Shown: piece by piece, positions 673-10,039 of the stretch
Position numbering within the stretch: the stretch's first letter is position 1
How the letters are laid out: each line of letters opens with the position of its first letter
Assembly (NCBI RefSeq): GCF_007475525.1
Contig: NZ_CP037899.1
Coordinates: 496,001 to 560,000 of the forward strand
DNA length: 64,000 nucleotides
From: Methylacidiphilum kamchatkense Kam1
GTDB taxonomy: Bacteria > Verrucomicrobiota > Verrucomicrobiia > Methylacidiphilales > Methylacidiphilaceae
Direction of reading: 5' to 3'
Made by a program: the position numbers and the translations under genes
The notes under the pieces: model-generated
Told to the model about the DNA's origin: nothing
The model's database searches: none
What the model saw: only the letters and a program-made list of their open reading frames with translations

Positions 673-1295
673 ATGGCTAAGATCCTTTATATTGAGGCTT
701 CACCTCGAAAAGATAGATCTTTTTCTATAGCGACGGCAAAAGTATTTCTTGAGGCTTACAAGGCAAATCACTCAACAGACTCCATAACAACGTTGGATCT
801 TTGGTCCAAATCCCTTCCTTCTTTTGATGGCTATATTCTTCAAAGCAAGTATGCCATTTTTCATGGCTTAGAGCATACCCCTGAACAAAAAAAGGCATGG
901 AGTGAAGTCGAAGCAATTATTGCCCACTTTATTAGCTTCGACAAATATGTGTTTTCTTTTCCTATGTGGAATTTTGCTATTCCCTACAGACTTAAGCATT
1001 ATATAGATATTCTTGTGCAGCCCACTTATACTTTTTCTTATACTCCACAAGAGGGCTACAAAGGATTGGTAGTTGGGAAAAAGGCATGCTTGATATGTTC
1101 TAGAGGGGGAGTTATCCAGAAGGAACTGAATTTCAAAAATATGATTTTCAGCTTCCTTATATGAAATTAATCCTGGGATTTATTGGAATTACAGATGTTC
1201 ATCAAATAATTATTGATGGAACTCTTTTTGAAAAGAGAGAAGTGCTTTTGGACAAGGCAATGATTGAGGCAAGGAATGCTGCTGCAACTTTTTAG
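673..1295 (+). pseudogene. FMN-dependent NADH-azoreductase-like flavoprotein, frameshifted
   Basis: The N-terminal frame (673-1164) shows the flavodoxin-like NAD(P)H dehydrogenase fold of AzoR: an IEASPRKDRSFS phosphate loop near residue 6, then FPMWNFAIPYRLKHYIDI, the FMN-binding PMWNF motif. After SRGG the frame hits a stop at 1164, but the adjacent frame continues with YPEGTEFQKYDFQLPY and then LGFIGITDV, the AzoR C-terminal signature, ending at 1295. The frames meet at the G5 run 1105-1109, and one extra G restores a protein of about 207 residues. Members reduce quinones or azo compounds with NADH. It is either an assembly error or a recent pseudogene. Confidence 0.75.
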
Positions 1296-1321: not shown

Positions 1322-2852
1322 TGCTTACTTGCCATTTCGCAGCAGGAGGGGTATCCCTGGCTTCTTGGTTTTGCGGGTTAACCATTAAAGAAGCAGGAGG
1401 AAAATACAACCCATAAAGAGTTCTGTTCCACCAGAGTCCTTTCTCTTTTTTTCTGACCAAGAGCTATATTCATAGACATAGATAAGGGCTCGGACATATT
1501 TCGGAGGAGAAGTAGGGAAGGGATTGGCTTTGAAAAGTTTGATGACCTCTTTCTTGCCGTGAAGCAAGCAAGAGAGAAGTGAGGCAAACCAAGGATTTTC
1601 TTTTGGTGTACTTAAAGCGGCAAACCACATTTGCCAGTCTAATCTTGGATGGAATGGAGAGATAAATGCAGGAGCTTTATGAGGGTCGTCAGGTTTCCAA
1701 CAAAATGGGAATTCTTTCCATTCGATGCCGTCGGAGCTCCCTTCTATAATTATTTCCGGCCTTCTTGTTGTCATGATGGCAAAGGCTCCATAATTGTTTA
1801 TCGATCGTATAGCTGAAAGGGAGTTGAGAAGTTTTACAGTCCATTGTGGATAGGCAAAAGAAAAGGATTCTAAAAAAAGCAGAACACTGATCAAAAAAAC
1901 AGGAAGAATAAGAAAAAATGAGAATTTCTTCTGAAGTTTTGGACAAGGCATTGGAGGGGATTTGGGGAAGAAAGGGAGAATCTTTTTTAAAAAACTATCA
2001 TCTAACAAGACAAGTCCTAAGGCTAAAGTAATCCAGTTAAAAAAAGCATGATTACCAGTGAGAATAATAAGTAATTGCAAGAGAGAAAAAAGAATGAAAC
2101 TCACTGTTCTGCCTAGTCGGCCCAAAAAAATAGCGAAGGGAACCACCAGTTCGATGAATAGGACAATAAAGGTTGTAGTTTCATGAAACCACATGGGAAA
2201 GTGATAAAAGTACCAAGCTAGGGGGTAGGCAATGGTTCTGTTTCATAATGATATTTTAAAGCAGTCAAAGCTCGCCATGTTGGATCATGGCTTTCCAATT
2301 TAACGATCCCAGAAAGAAGCATCAGTCGGAAGAGCAGCCAACGGAAGATAAAAGTTGCCCAAGCGGGTGGAAAAGTTAATTCCATAAAGCCAGGATGAAG
2401 TTTCCATGGCGATGATAAAATGGAAAGTAGCCCACATTCTAAAAGGAGACCATCCCATTGGAAATTAAAAAAGGTCTGTCCCACTGATACATAAGAGAGA
2501 TAAAGAGACCAAAGAAATAAAGATACAAGAGCTGGAGCTATATTGAAAAAAGAAGAATAGCTAAGAACATTCCAAGAAAAGTTCCAGCATAAAGCATGGG
2601 ATCGGTTGGAGGTATGATCCAGAACAGGGTAGGAACTAAAAAAAATCTTCGCCAGCCTATTTGATCTTGAACATAATGCAGGAATGGAGAAGCAGGGAGA
2701 ATCCCTCCTTCTCCTATTAATCCAAGAATTTGAAAAGAAAGGGAAAAAAAGGCAATGAAATAGATAAAGGAAAGAGCACGAAAGAATAGCCATAGGGCTA
2801 AGGGATTTGGAGTGGATAGTAGTTTTTTGAAGTTAAAAGACAAGATTTTCAA
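1305..2852 (-). pseudogene. Lipase maturation factor family protein (LMF1-like), three frameshifts
   Basis: Three frames together give a polytopic membrane protein of the LMF family. The first (from 2852) has membrane segments and GGILPASPF. The second has FFNFQWDGLLLECGLL and a segment ending YHYETEPLPTP. The third (from 2194) has FIVLFIELVVPFAIF and the conserved RLDWQMWFAAL and NPWF motifs. The frames join at A6 2546-2551, G5 2221-2225 and T7 1446-1452, and one added base at each restores one reading frame. The third correction also restores the family tail LWWNRTLYGLYFPP and moves the stop to 1305. Bacterial members have no settled function. The start overlaps the end of the peroxiredoxin gene by 4 bp, so the two are probably coupled. 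Confidence 0.7.
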
Positions 2853-3327
2853 TCTTTTGGCCAGAAATTGCTTGCTTCAAGGGCTTCTAGAACTTCTGCA
2901 GCTGTATTCCAAATATTGGGGTGACAATCACGCCATAACACTTTGCCATCTTTAATCAAAAATGAAAGGCGTTTGGGCATTCCAAAGAAAAGGGGGATAG
3001 CAAATTCCTTACAAACCTCTCCGCTTGGGTCACAAAGCAGCATAAAATTGAGCCGATTGTTTTGAATGAATTTTTTTTGTACAGTGGGCTTGTCTCTGCT
3101 TATTCCAATAACCTGAACATTAGCTTTCTGTAGCTCAGCTAAATGATCCCGGAGATTACAGGCTTGGACAGTGCAACCAGGAGTGTTAGCTTTTGGGAAA
3201 AAATATAGCAAAACCAATCCTTTCGAACAAAGCTCTCTTACGGAGACTGGATTGCCTACGGGATCCAATGCCCAAACATCGGGAATGGGCGAGCCCACTT
3301 CAAGTCCTATGCTATTGTTTTTTTCAT
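2849..3327 (-). CDS. bcp: Thiol peroxidase of the PrxQ/Bcp family
   Basis: A thioredoxin-fold peroxiredoxin that reduces hydrogen peroxide and organic hydroperoxides. FFPKANTPGCTVQAC carries the peroxidatic Cys in TPGCT and a resolving Cys five residues later, the atypical 2-Cys PrxQ arrangement. The readable frame starts at a GTG at 3298 (149 aa). Upstream, an ATG at 3327 is followed by an A run (T7 at 3318-3324 on the plus strand). One more base there gives an N-terminus MKKNNSIGLEVGSPIPDV, much closer to the usual start of the family, so I place the start at 3327. The enzyme acts in the cytoplasm. Confidence 0.88.
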
Positions 3328-3720
3328 TATTAAGGAAAACATGGTCATAGCGACATAGTTTTTTTATTTACAGAAAAATTTCAAGAAAGCCACGATTTTT
3401 AAACCTAGAGGAATTGAAAAATAGATGCTATACCACTCAAAGAACATTATGGCGCACTCACAGCATATGCAGAGAGGAGAAAACTTTAGCCCTCCTCTGT
3501 TATTGTTAGTATATATATTGTTATAAAAGGAGATGATATATAGGAAGCAGAAATAGGAAGCAGAAGGAAAAAACCCCCTCAACGCAATCAAAGGAAAAAA
3601 ACAACGGTTAGCTTCTTATGACCTCCTATCTTTTTTAAAGGAGAGTGGCCAATGCAACAGACCGAATGAGGAGAGTAGGTGGTAGTTAGTTTAGAAAATT
3701 AAAGAAAAGAGGAGTTTTTA
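3328..3720. other. Intergenic region upstream of the glcD-like gene
   Basis: About 390 bp lie between two divergently transcribed genes. They hold an AT-rich stretch near 3505-3545 and several AAAGGAG-like motifs, including one near 3639-3645. The apparent minus-strand ORF at 3364-3591 has low-complexity composition and no recognisable domain. I see no riboswitch, terminator or repeat. It presumably contains the promoters of both neighbours. Confidence 0.4.
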
Positions 3721-5167: not shown

Positions 5168-5698
5168 ATGAATTTTCAAGATGCTTTTCTATACGCTCTA
5201 GAAAATACGAAGATTATTTTGCCACCAAGGCGAGTTGTTTCTACTTTTGGAACAACTCTTATAAATTATCAACTCGTCACAGAAGATTTGGATAGGGTTG
5301 ATGTCTGTTTTGTTAGGGAAGGAAAATTGGAAGCCGAAAGGCCAAAAATAATTACTTCTCCACAGTTTGCTAAATTGACATTGGAAGGTTTTGGAAAAGA
5401 GGCTCAAGAATACGCAGAATGGCTATTGCAAAATGCTCCGCAAAGTAGTATTGCTTTTTTGCGTTATGGATTCTTCTTTAAAAAGGATGATGTGTGTTTT
5501 AGCGAGGTAAAAGGCTCTTCAGAAGAAGTGTGTGCTAAGCTCAAAGAAAAGATGATTAAAGAAGGGGATCCTCTCTCTCTCCTTCTGAAAGGGGAAGAGG
5601 AACTTTGGGAAGTGTCTTTACTTAAATTTCTAATTGATTGGGTGCGTGTGTCTGTTACAAAAAACATTCACGATTTTCGACAAGAAGGCTTTATTTAA
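5168..5698 (+). CDS. Conserved-looking hypothetical protein
   Basis: A soluble protein of 176 residues with good coding character and no signal peptide or membrane span. The N-terminus resembles a small alpha/beta domain, and the C-terminal third is rich in Lys and Glu and predicted helical. It follows the glcD-like gene by 85 bp on the same strand and converges on the FolB fusion gene 10 bp downstream. I do not recognise the family. Confidence 0.6.
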   Translation: MNFQDAFLYALENTKIILPPRRVVSTFGTTLINYQLVTEDLDRVDVCFVREGKLEAERPKIITSPQFAKLTLEGFGKEAQEYAEWLLQNAPQSSIAFLRYGFFFKKDDVCFSEVKGSSEEVCAKLKEKMIKEGDPLSLLLKGEEELWEVSLLKFLIDWVRVSVTKNIHDFRQEGFI

Positions 5699-5708
5699 GC
5701 ATTTTCAG

Positions 5709-6620
5709 TTAATTTTTCTTTCTTTTTAAGATAAAAGAAACTTCGGCTACGTTAGGAAAGGGAAACTTTGAGACTTTTACTCTCAGCCCTGAAACCAAAG
5801 GATGGAGGAGTAATTGTGTAGCGATCTCTTCGGCAAGGGATTCGATGAGTTTTCTAGGTTTGCTACTAGCTATATTTTCTATGATTTCTTTGACAGTAGC
5901 GTAATCGAGCGTGGTGGATAATTCATCTGTATCATGAGCTTTACGAGTAACCCCTGGATCTATATAGAGATCAACAGAAATAAGGAGTTTTTGTTTATTC
6001 CTTCTTTCTTCTTCTGGTACCCCGATCCATGCATCAACTTGGATTTTCTCTAACCTAATGATATCTTGAGAAATGGAGAAAAGGTCGATTTTGCTTGTGT
6101 GTTGAAAAGTTGATTGTGGACACAATCCATAATAGGGAGGCTGAAAAAAAGATTCAGGTTTTCTTTCAATATCAATACCCCGATCAAGCACTCTGTAGCA
6201 AAAATCATAGATCCCCTTTTCTTTGCTTTCTCTGGAGCCTGCCACATTAAGTATTTCGATGGAATGGTAGGACAAAAATTTTTTGAGGGTGGCTTCTATC
6301 TCTGGAGTCGTTTCGTGAATGTGGAGCCAAGGTTTTCCAAAATTTACTGCAAATTGTTGAGTCGCTAAAGATCCTTCAGTAAGAGACGGTTTTAATGTGA
6401 CAATCAAGGTACCATCTGAATCCCAAACATTCCATGCTGTTCTTACTGTATAGCTTGGAGTGGGAGTTTCCGAAAGCTGGTATTTATCAGGAATGACACC
6501 CGCTTCCGATAATCTCCCTTTGGGACACCATCCTCCATGCGGTATCCCATTGGCAATCGCCCAATCCAAGGCAGCCCTATCCGCTCCTGTTTGCCCGCCT
6601 GAGACAATTTTTCTGATCAT
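5709..6620 (-). CDS. folB: Fusion of putative molybdenum-carrier (YpsA/SLOG-like) domain and dihydroneopterin aldolase
   Basis: 303 residues in two parts. Residues 1-~147 match the putative molybdenum-carrier/cpYpsA SLOG type: IVSGGQTGADRAALDWAI, GGWCPKGRLSEAG, and a Rossmann-like strand with DGTLIV. Residues ~178-303 are FolB-like: VDAWIGVPEEERRNKQ, TDELSTTLDYATVKEI, LIESLAEEIA, then VKVSKF, keeping the candidate catalytic Tyr240, Glu260 and Lys285. FolB cleaves 7,8-dihydroneopterin to hydroxymethyl-dihydropterin in folate synthesis, or epimerises dihydroneopterin or its triphosphate. SLOG domains bind nucleotide-like ligands. The join looks real: there is no internal ribosome site or stop. 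It is transcribed divergently from the thioesterase gene. Confidence 0.82.
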   Translation of the reverse strand: MIRKIVSGGQTGADRAALDWAIANGIPHGGWCPKGRLSEAGVIPDKYQLSETPTPSYTVRTAWNVWDSDGTLIVTLKPSLTEGSLATQQFAVNFGKPWLHIHETTPEIEATLKKFLSYHSIEILNVAGSRESKEKGIYDFCYRVLDRGIDIERKPESFFQPPYYGLCPQSTFQHTSKIDLFSISQDIIRLEKIQVDAWIGVPEEERRNKQKLLISVDLYIDPGVTRKAHDTDELSTTLDYATVKEIIENIASSKPRKLIESLAEEIATQLLLHPLVSGLRVKVSKFPFPNVAEVSFILKRKKN

Positions 6621-6687: not shown

Positions 6688-7137
6688 ATGCCTGTACTAC
6701 CTGAGCTGCCTGAATGCGAATCGAAAATCAAGACCTTTTTTTTTGACACTGACTCCTGCGGACTTGTCCACAACATTGCTTATTTGCGTTTTGTGGAGAT
6801 CGCCCGTTCCGAACTAGCTGAACGGCTTGGTTGGCCATTGAAAGAGATGGAAAAGACAGGCTTGGTTCCTGTAGTCGTCAAAACCGAAATTGTTTATAAA
6901 TCCCCTGCCAGACTTGGGGATATCATCAGTATCATTTCAAGGCTTAGTCGAATAGAAAGAGTGAGATTTCAGATTGACTTCGAATTAAGAAAGGAAAGTC
7001 CTACGGGTAGTTTACTTGCTGAATGCCGACAAATCCTTGCTTGTATCAAACTTCCAGAAAGAAAACCCTCGCCAATTCCATTAAACTGGGCCCAATCTTA
7101 TCCTTGGTTAGTTGGGAAAAAGACGGAAAACAGCTAA
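6688..7137 (+). CDS. Acyl-CoA thioesterase, YbgC/4-hydroxybenzoyl-CoA thioesterase family
   Basis: A 149-residue hotdog-fold thioesterase. FFFDTDSCGLVHNIAYLRF (residues 17-35) is the family signature, with Asp in the position of the catalytic acid and the VHN turn close to the usual VYHANYL. It hydrolyses short or aromatic acyl-CoA esters in the cytoplasm; the substrate cannot be deduced. Only 67 bp separate it from the divergent FolB fusion gene. A quinone oxidoreductase gene follows after 44 bp on the same strand, so the two may be co-transcribed. Confidence 0.82.
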   Translation: MPVLPELPECESKIKTFFFDTDSCGLVHNIAYLRFVEIARSELAERLGWPLKEMEKTGLVPVVVKTEIVYKSPARLGDIISIISRLSRIERVRFQIDFELRKESPTGSLLAECRQILACIKLPERKPSPIPLNWAQSYPWLVGKKTENS

Positions 7138-8477: not shown

Positions 8478-10039
8478 ATGATCATTACAGATGTTCCAAA
8501 TATTAGGAGACTTGAAGAGGAAGCGATAGCCAATGGCATTTCCGCTGAAGTTCTAATGGAAAGAGCCGGCAGGATGGCTGCGTGTTTTTTTCTCCAGCAT
8601 TATCCTCGCATGGGTTCGATTCTTGTATTGGTTGGTAAAGGCAATAATGGGGGGATGGGCTTGTGATTGCCAGAGAGTTATTGAAAAGGGGATGGCCTGT
8701 ATCGGTTTATCTCTCTGCAGAGAGAGGAAAACTAGGAAGCTTATGTAAAAAAAAGCTGGAGGAATTATTGCAGGCATTTCCTCAGTTATCCTTGTACACC
8801 TATCCAGATCCTGTGCCCTGGACGAAAGCGGATTATGTGCTGGATTGTCTACTTGGAATCGGTGTGAAAGGAGAATTGCAGGGTGAAGTAGCTCAGCTTG
8901 TCAAAGAACTGAATGAACAGCGTAATCGTTGTTTTTTCCAAACAATAGCCGTTGATTGTCCTTCAGGATTGTGGGAGCATTCGACAGCTAGTTCTTTAGC
9001 CGTTATTGCCGATTTAACACTAAGTATTGGCTACGGTAAAGATTTCCTTTTTAGAGAAGAGCTTTCAGATTTTACAGGACGAGTGGAAATTGTCCCCATT
9101 TTTGATACCCTACCTCCCAGTTCAGGATTGGAATCTTTAGTGGGATGGGAGCTAGCCTTATTATTCCCATTTAGAAATTCTAATACGCATAAAGGCCGTT
9201 ATGGACGAGTGCTTATTCTTGGTGGTTCTGTTGGCTTTACGGGGGCTCCAGTGATGGCAGCGCAGGCGGCGCATCGTATAGGCTCAGGACTGGTCAATGT
9301 GGGAGTTCCTCAGGAAGTTTATCCGCTTGTGGCTGCAAAGGCCCCTTCTGAATCCATGGTATTTCCTTACGATGATCCTAAGTTATTTGAGACGGTAGTT
9401 TCTAAAGCAACGGTTGTTGCCATGGGCCCTGGATTTGGTTTGGAAAGAAAATCAGAAATATTTTTCAAAACGCTTATGTCATTGGATCTGCCCTTAGTCA
9501 TTGATGCAGATTGTTTGACTTTGCTTGCACGCAATCCAGACTTCTTTCAGCTCATTAGAAAATGGGCTGTGCTCACCCCTCATCCAGGAGAAATGAAACG
9601 ACTTCTAAGAATGGAATTTTCTCCTGAAGAAAGAATTCAAGTAGCAAGCAATTTTGTGAAAGATAAAAAGATAACTTTAGTTTTGAAAGGAGTCAGAACC
9701 GTAGTAGCTCAAGAAGGAAAAGATGTATTTTTCAATACAACTGGAAATCCTGGACTTTCTACGGGCGGATCTGGAGATAGCTTACTAGGGATTATTGCTG
9801 GACTGATTGCTCAAGGCTTGGAACCCTTTGATGCTGCTTGTAGTGGAGTATGGATTCATGGAAAGGCTGCTGACATAGCAGCGGAAAAAAGAAGAACAAA
9901 AGAGGGATTACTTCCTTTAGATGTGGTAGAGAATATAGGGGCGGCTTTAGAACAAATGCGGATGCATTTACGGTTAGTTCTAGACCAAAAAAGCCAGTGG
10001 CAAGAAATTCAAACTGCCTATTCTCTGTATCCCCGTTAA
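8478..10039 (+). pseudogene. nnr: Bifunctional NAD(P)H-hydrate epimerase/dehydratase (Nnr), frameshifted
   Basis: This metabolite-repair enzyme converts damaged NAD(P)HX back to NAD(P)H. The first frame (8478-8666) holds the start of the YjeF N-terminal epimerase domain up to GKGNNGG. The second (8663-10039) continues from IARELLKRGWP and holds the rest of the epimerase and the ribokinase-like dehydratase: KGRYGRVLILGGSVGFTGAP, LTPHPGEMKRL and NPGLSTGGSGDSLLGIIAGL. One base added to the G6 run 8649-8654 rebuilds the family motif GNNGGDGLVIAR, giving about 520 residues, the normal length. Loss of this function would be surprising, which favours an assembly error. Confidence 0.85.

Follow-up and report, generated by a model that had tools for sequence, protein, structure and literature searches.

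The window, which is the whole 64,000-nucleotide stretch of Methylacidiphilum kamchatkense Kam1 DNA that was analysed, contains a gene at 5709-6620 on the minus strand. This gene starts with ATG, has 303 codons and no internal stop codon, and encodes a 303-residue fusion protein, in which a cpYpsA (SLOG) domain, a linker and a FolB (dihydroneopterin aldolase, DHNA) domain follow one another. The cpYpsA domain (residues 1-147; 6180-6620, minus strand) contains the motifs SGGQTGADRAALD, GGWCPKGR, RTxWNVxDSDGT and LNVAGSR, and is assigned from its 3imk fold and from the Pfam match of residues 5-147 to PF12694 (180 bits against a cut-off of 26.2; E value of 2.9e-53). The FolB domain (residues 186-303; 5712-6065, minus strand) is assigned from its match to DHNA folds, from the mapping of its catalytic residues and from the Pfam match of residues 188-289 to PF02152 (85.4 bits against a gathering cut-off of 31.8; E value of 5e-24). 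The interdomain linker (residues 148-185; 6066-6179, minus strand) is delimited by pLDDT, sequence variability and dN/dS. The source genome (2.2 Mb, a single contig) contains one FolB and one cpYpsA, both of them within the fusion. The protein is 93% identical to that of Methylacidiphilum sp. Yel, and the two domains lie in one stop-free frame in 11 independent genome assemblies, which excludes a frame error at the cpYpsA/FolB junction. Thus, the single uninterrupted frame proposed in the earlier note is confirmed by the intact ORF, the Pfam matches and the 11 genomes; separate genes in all close relatives, combined with a frame error at the junction, are not what is found.

The distribution of the fusion was examined in 62 genomes of the order and in 288 genomes of the phylum. 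The same domain order, which the earlier note had suggested looking for in other genomes, is present across two genera of acidophilic methanotrophs, in 11 of the 13 genomes of the family Methylacidiphilaceae: in all five Methylacidiphilum genomes and in six of the seven genomes of a second genus, probably Methylacidimicrobium, whose sole fusion-negative genome is 83% complete. A third genus is represented by one genome, which carries a free-standing folB frame of 131 codons elsewhere, beside a decarboxylase-like gene. Its cpYpsA gene starts at the ancestral locus and runs into the contig end after about 43 codons, beyond which a second, unassembled folB may be fused to it. In the rest of the order, free FolB is found in nearly all genomes with a match and free cpYpsA in two. 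The fusion is seen neither in these other genomes of the order nor in the sampled phylum, the phages and plasmids searched, or the other fetched genome-contig loci, for which the search was pattern-based and of partial coverage. A literature search pairing SLOG with dihydroneopterin aldolase likewise yields no match. The fusion is genuine, old and lineage-restricted; its parts are already known, and what is new is their combination.

A 4HBT-type thioesterase gene (6688-7137, plus strand) is divergent from the fusion gene and serves as a synteny marker, outside the function discussed here. In each of the three genera of the family it adjoins cpYpsA, from which it also diverges in the genome with the truncated contig; cpYpsA is therefore the original gene of this locus, to which folB was added later. 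In a quick UvrB tree, the two fused genera group together and the third genus lies outside (SH-aLRT of 97). In the free cpYpsA tree, the two fused groups do not come together, so that two fusion events are conceivable; each domain taken singly gives a short, noisy tree, and one clade of all fusions is not rejected by the AU test (p of 0.49 for cpYpsA and 0.55 for FolB). Two g3 genomes contain an ATG with an SD-like sequence exactly at the position of the free-FolB start (MGDAIEI as compared to MSDRINI), and two others contain AAG. This ATG looks like a fossil start codon, which fits an end-to-end fusion. No internal start codon before FolB is conserved across the fusions, and none with an SD-like sequence is present in the source genome; separate production of FolB from an internal start is rejected, because the start codon is not conserved. 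Synteny, copy number and domain order show that the ancestor of the family already had cpYpsA next to the thioesterase gene, and that folB was later attached to its 3' end, in the same frame, in the ancestor that the two genera share, probably once in the family, replacing the free-standing folB.

Alignment of the FolB half with the Yersinia pestis DHNA, in which the numbering is anchored on the Tyr53 and Lys98 of the PDB titles, assigns Glu21, Tyr53, Glu73 and Lys98 to E205, Y240, E260 and K285. These four residues are invariant in all 11 fusions, so that the candidate catalytic Tyr, Glu and Lys pointed out earlier are indeed kept. The AlphaFold monomer model of this half matches many dihydroneopterin aldolases with a target-normalised TM of about 0.8 (Foldseek). 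The domain model TIGR00526 scores 71.7 bits, above its cut-off of 45.05, and the FolB equivalog TIGR00525 (NCBIfam) scores 70.5 bits, narrowly below its cut-off of 72.15; FolX models score far below the FolB models. With this shortfall of less than 2 bits, specificity of the epimerase type is conceivable for this domain. The source genome contains folE2 (GTP cyclohydrolase FolE2), folK (HPPK) and folP (DHPS), and a genome search finds no folE. The lone PTPS homologue of the genome reads KCRKIHGH at the CxxxHGH motif, the Cys-type motif of QueD, and the PTPS-III bypass is thus not seen in this genome. No NudB-type match exceeds the cut-off in the source genome, leaving the step between FolE2 and FolB without an assigned gene; this absence means little, because NudB exceeds the cut-off in just one of 14 control genomes. 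The same FolE2-based folate route has been described for the M. infernorum genome (PMC2474590). The FolB half is most likely the working and sole dihydroneopterin aldolase of the cell, as judged from its intact active site, its single copy and the presence of folE2, folK and folP. It shares the fold, the catalytic Glu/Tyr/Glu/Lys and the single copy in a folate-making genome with FolB proteins of known structure (PDB 2o90, 3r2e and 1dhn), but differs from them in the added N-terminal cpYpsA domain and in its sequence identity of only about 30%. Its catalytic Lys is followed by KF(P/I)(F/L)P instead of a KPxA-type motif, as in the free FolBs of the order. FolB is also one module of a multidomain protein in the DHNA-HPPK of Streptococcus pneumoniae (PDB 2cg8) and in the eukaryotic folB-folK-folP protein (PMC4224340). 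However, these proteins unite consecutive enzymes of the pathway, whereas FolB is joined here to a SLOG domain, which is not known to have a role in folate metabolism.

The cpYpsA half of the AlphaFold model is 48% identical in sequence to PDB 3imk, with a target-normalised TM of 0.90 (Foldseek), and the whole domain is common to the 'putative molybdenum carrier' family. The label 'molybdenum carrier' comes from the title of PDB 3imk alone. The pocket residues SGGQTGxDRAALD, GGWCPxxR, RTxxN and NxxG are conserved in 49 sequences including the window protein, suggesting that the fused SLOG half would have the same ligand as other cpYpsA proteins. Relatives within SLOG either bind nucleotides or cleave them. 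The Rossmann-like nucleotide pocket is shared with other members of the superfamily, YpsA and Thoeris ThsA, but cpYpsA represents a circularly permuted branch, unlike the SLOG domains of these two proteins. It is usually a stand-alone protein of about 150 residues, whereas its C-terminus is joined to FolB here. In the literature searched, neither the term 'cpYpsA' nor a function of this family is found. The fusion protein has no PADLOC match at an E value of 0.1, and an anti-phage SLOG system (Thoeris and others) is rejected, because the defence-model search is empty. The neighbours of stand-alone cpYpsA genes are diverse: no folate or pterin family recurs among 89 same-strand neighbours, which include one lone GCV_T, and no FolB is present within the fetched flanks. 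The distribution of cpYpsA is patchy. In the phylum sample, most of the genomes that carry FolB lack it, and it occurs on phages and plasmids, there without folB. On a Caballeronia plasmid (positions 4004-5444 of locus L171), a SIR2-family gene directly precedes cpYpsA; this single case is a possible hint of NAD chemistry. The stand-alone cpYpsA genes of phages, such as that of the Maribacter phage Colly_1 (positions 3001-3453 of locus L177), are located amid runs of small hypothetical genes.

The linker is predicted to be disordered at residues 156-180, with pLDDT values below 50, and varies in length and sequence across the fusions. The pTM of the whole AlphaFold model is 0.58, although each domain is modelled with confidence, indicating that packing of the cpYpsA and FolB domains against each other is not predicted with confidence; as a monomer model, it would not reveal contacts that are made in the oligomer alone. 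Between the genera, identity is 52-58% for cpYpsA, 34-38% for FolB and 0-8% for the linker; cpYpsA is the better conserved half, and FolB diverges faster. According to NG86 estimates, for which dS is saturated in several distant pairs, omega in both domains lies mostly at 0.05-0.2 and does not exceed 0.33, as expected for purifying selection, while the dN/dS of the linker is 0.35-1.4, which is near-neutral. These results suggest that both domains are kept working, and that it does not matter how long the tether is or which residues it contains.

The fusion protein is best explained, with a probability of about 0.65, as two domains that work independently and are connected by a flexible tether, and that arose from one end-to-end gene fusion. 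According to this explanation, the FolB domain would produce 6-hydroxymethyl-dihydropterin for folate synthesis. The FolB domains would assemble into the usual FolB oligomer, a tunnelling-fold octamer, and one SLOG domain would hang from each subunit, because the linker is disordered. The SLOG domain would keep the pocket of its own family and most likely perform a nucleotide-related job of its own, and the link between the halves would be one of shared production or tethering rather than of catalytic coupling. Against independence, the fusion has been retained while the two genera diverged to about 53% identity in cpYpsA and about 36% in FolB, which could mean that coupling is important. The roles proposed earlier for the SLOG half, namely the binding of a pterin or of molybdopterin, the delivery of substrate and the regulation of folate synthesis, are not supported, because stand-alone cpYpsA genes lack recurring folate and pterin neighbours. 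The cpYpsA genes of phages and plasmids, the absence of cpYpsA from most FolB-bearing genomes and the unconstrained, disordered linker further argue against a folate role, and one fusion event is weak evidence for any of these roles.

It is unlikely that cpYpsA takes part in the folate pathway or acts upon it, whether by switching FolB in response to a ligand or by working on a pterin intermediate, for instance dihydroneopterin triphosphate. As a switch, the SLOG domain would sense a nucleotide or NAD-derived ligand and turn FolB up or down, setting the folate supply in methanotrophs with folate-dependent C1 metabolism. The maintenance of the fusion and the intact SLOG pocket are consistent with such a sensor, as is the description of SLOG proteins of the YpsA-like clade, linked to NAD/ADP-ribose, as nucleotide or cADPR sensors (PMC6459960, PMC9503650); in M. 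infernorum, C1 transfer depends on folate/FolD, and the tetrahydromethanopterin (H4MPT) pathway is absent (PMC2474590). However, a sensor is rather improbable, given that the linker is disordered and unconserved, that stand-alone cpYpsA shows no association with folate genes, and that folB stands on its own in the closest genus, where no fusion is visible. A SLOG domain with a role in the pathway itself, for instance one that removes phosphate from dihydroneopterin triphosphate or holds this compound and so supplies FolB, would fill the unassigned step between FolE2 and FolB. Dihydroneopterin triphosphate is GTP-derived and thus nucleotide-like, and SLOG folds bind nucleotide phosphates, but the SLOG enzymes known to us cleave N-glycosidic bonds, not phosphoanhydrides. 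The scarcity of NudB matches among the controls, the many FolB-bearing genomes of the phylum sample that show no cpYpsA, and the phage and plasmid copies found apart from folB also make such a role very doubtful.

A catalytically dead FolB domain that serves as an oligomerisation scaffold for SLOG would account for the faster divergence of FolB and its equivalog score just under the cut-off, but is highly improbable, as the four catalytic residues are invariant and this FolB is the only one in a genome that also contains folE2, folK and folP. There is equally little chance that a sequencing or frame artefact, or an internal start of FolB, produces the apparent fusion: neighbouring genes of the assembly do have frame breaks relative to congeners, and two g3 genomes retain the ATG with the SD-like sequence, but an artefact at the junction is ruled out by the 11 uninterrupted assemblies, and the start codon near the FolB start is not conserved and lacks an SD-like counterpart in the source genome.

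If cpYpsA did take part in the folate pathway or act upon it, this would be the first function for the cpYpsA branch of SLOG. The cpYpsA family is widespread, and its conserved fusion to a well-understood, assayable enzyme provides a concrete protein with which its ligand can be tested. If the domains are independent, the protein represents a clean case of a long-kept fusion without evident functional coupling.

Among the other genes of the window, the one at 5168-5698 (plus strand), which is located directly downstream of the fusion gene and convergent with it, encodes a 176-residue protein that is 80-96% conserved in the genus and has no Pfam match. The frames at 1385-2194 and 2218-2793 (both minus strand) correspond to one frame of 515-518 residues in congeners; in the source genome, either the frame is broken at this site or the sequence contains an error. 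The NnrD-like gene is divided into two frames at 8478-8666 and 8663-10039 (both plus strand), and is a single frame of 518-520 residues in congeners. The FMN-reductase-like frame at 673-1164 (plus strand) encodes 163 residues as compared to 207-213 in congeners, probably owing to a late frameshift.
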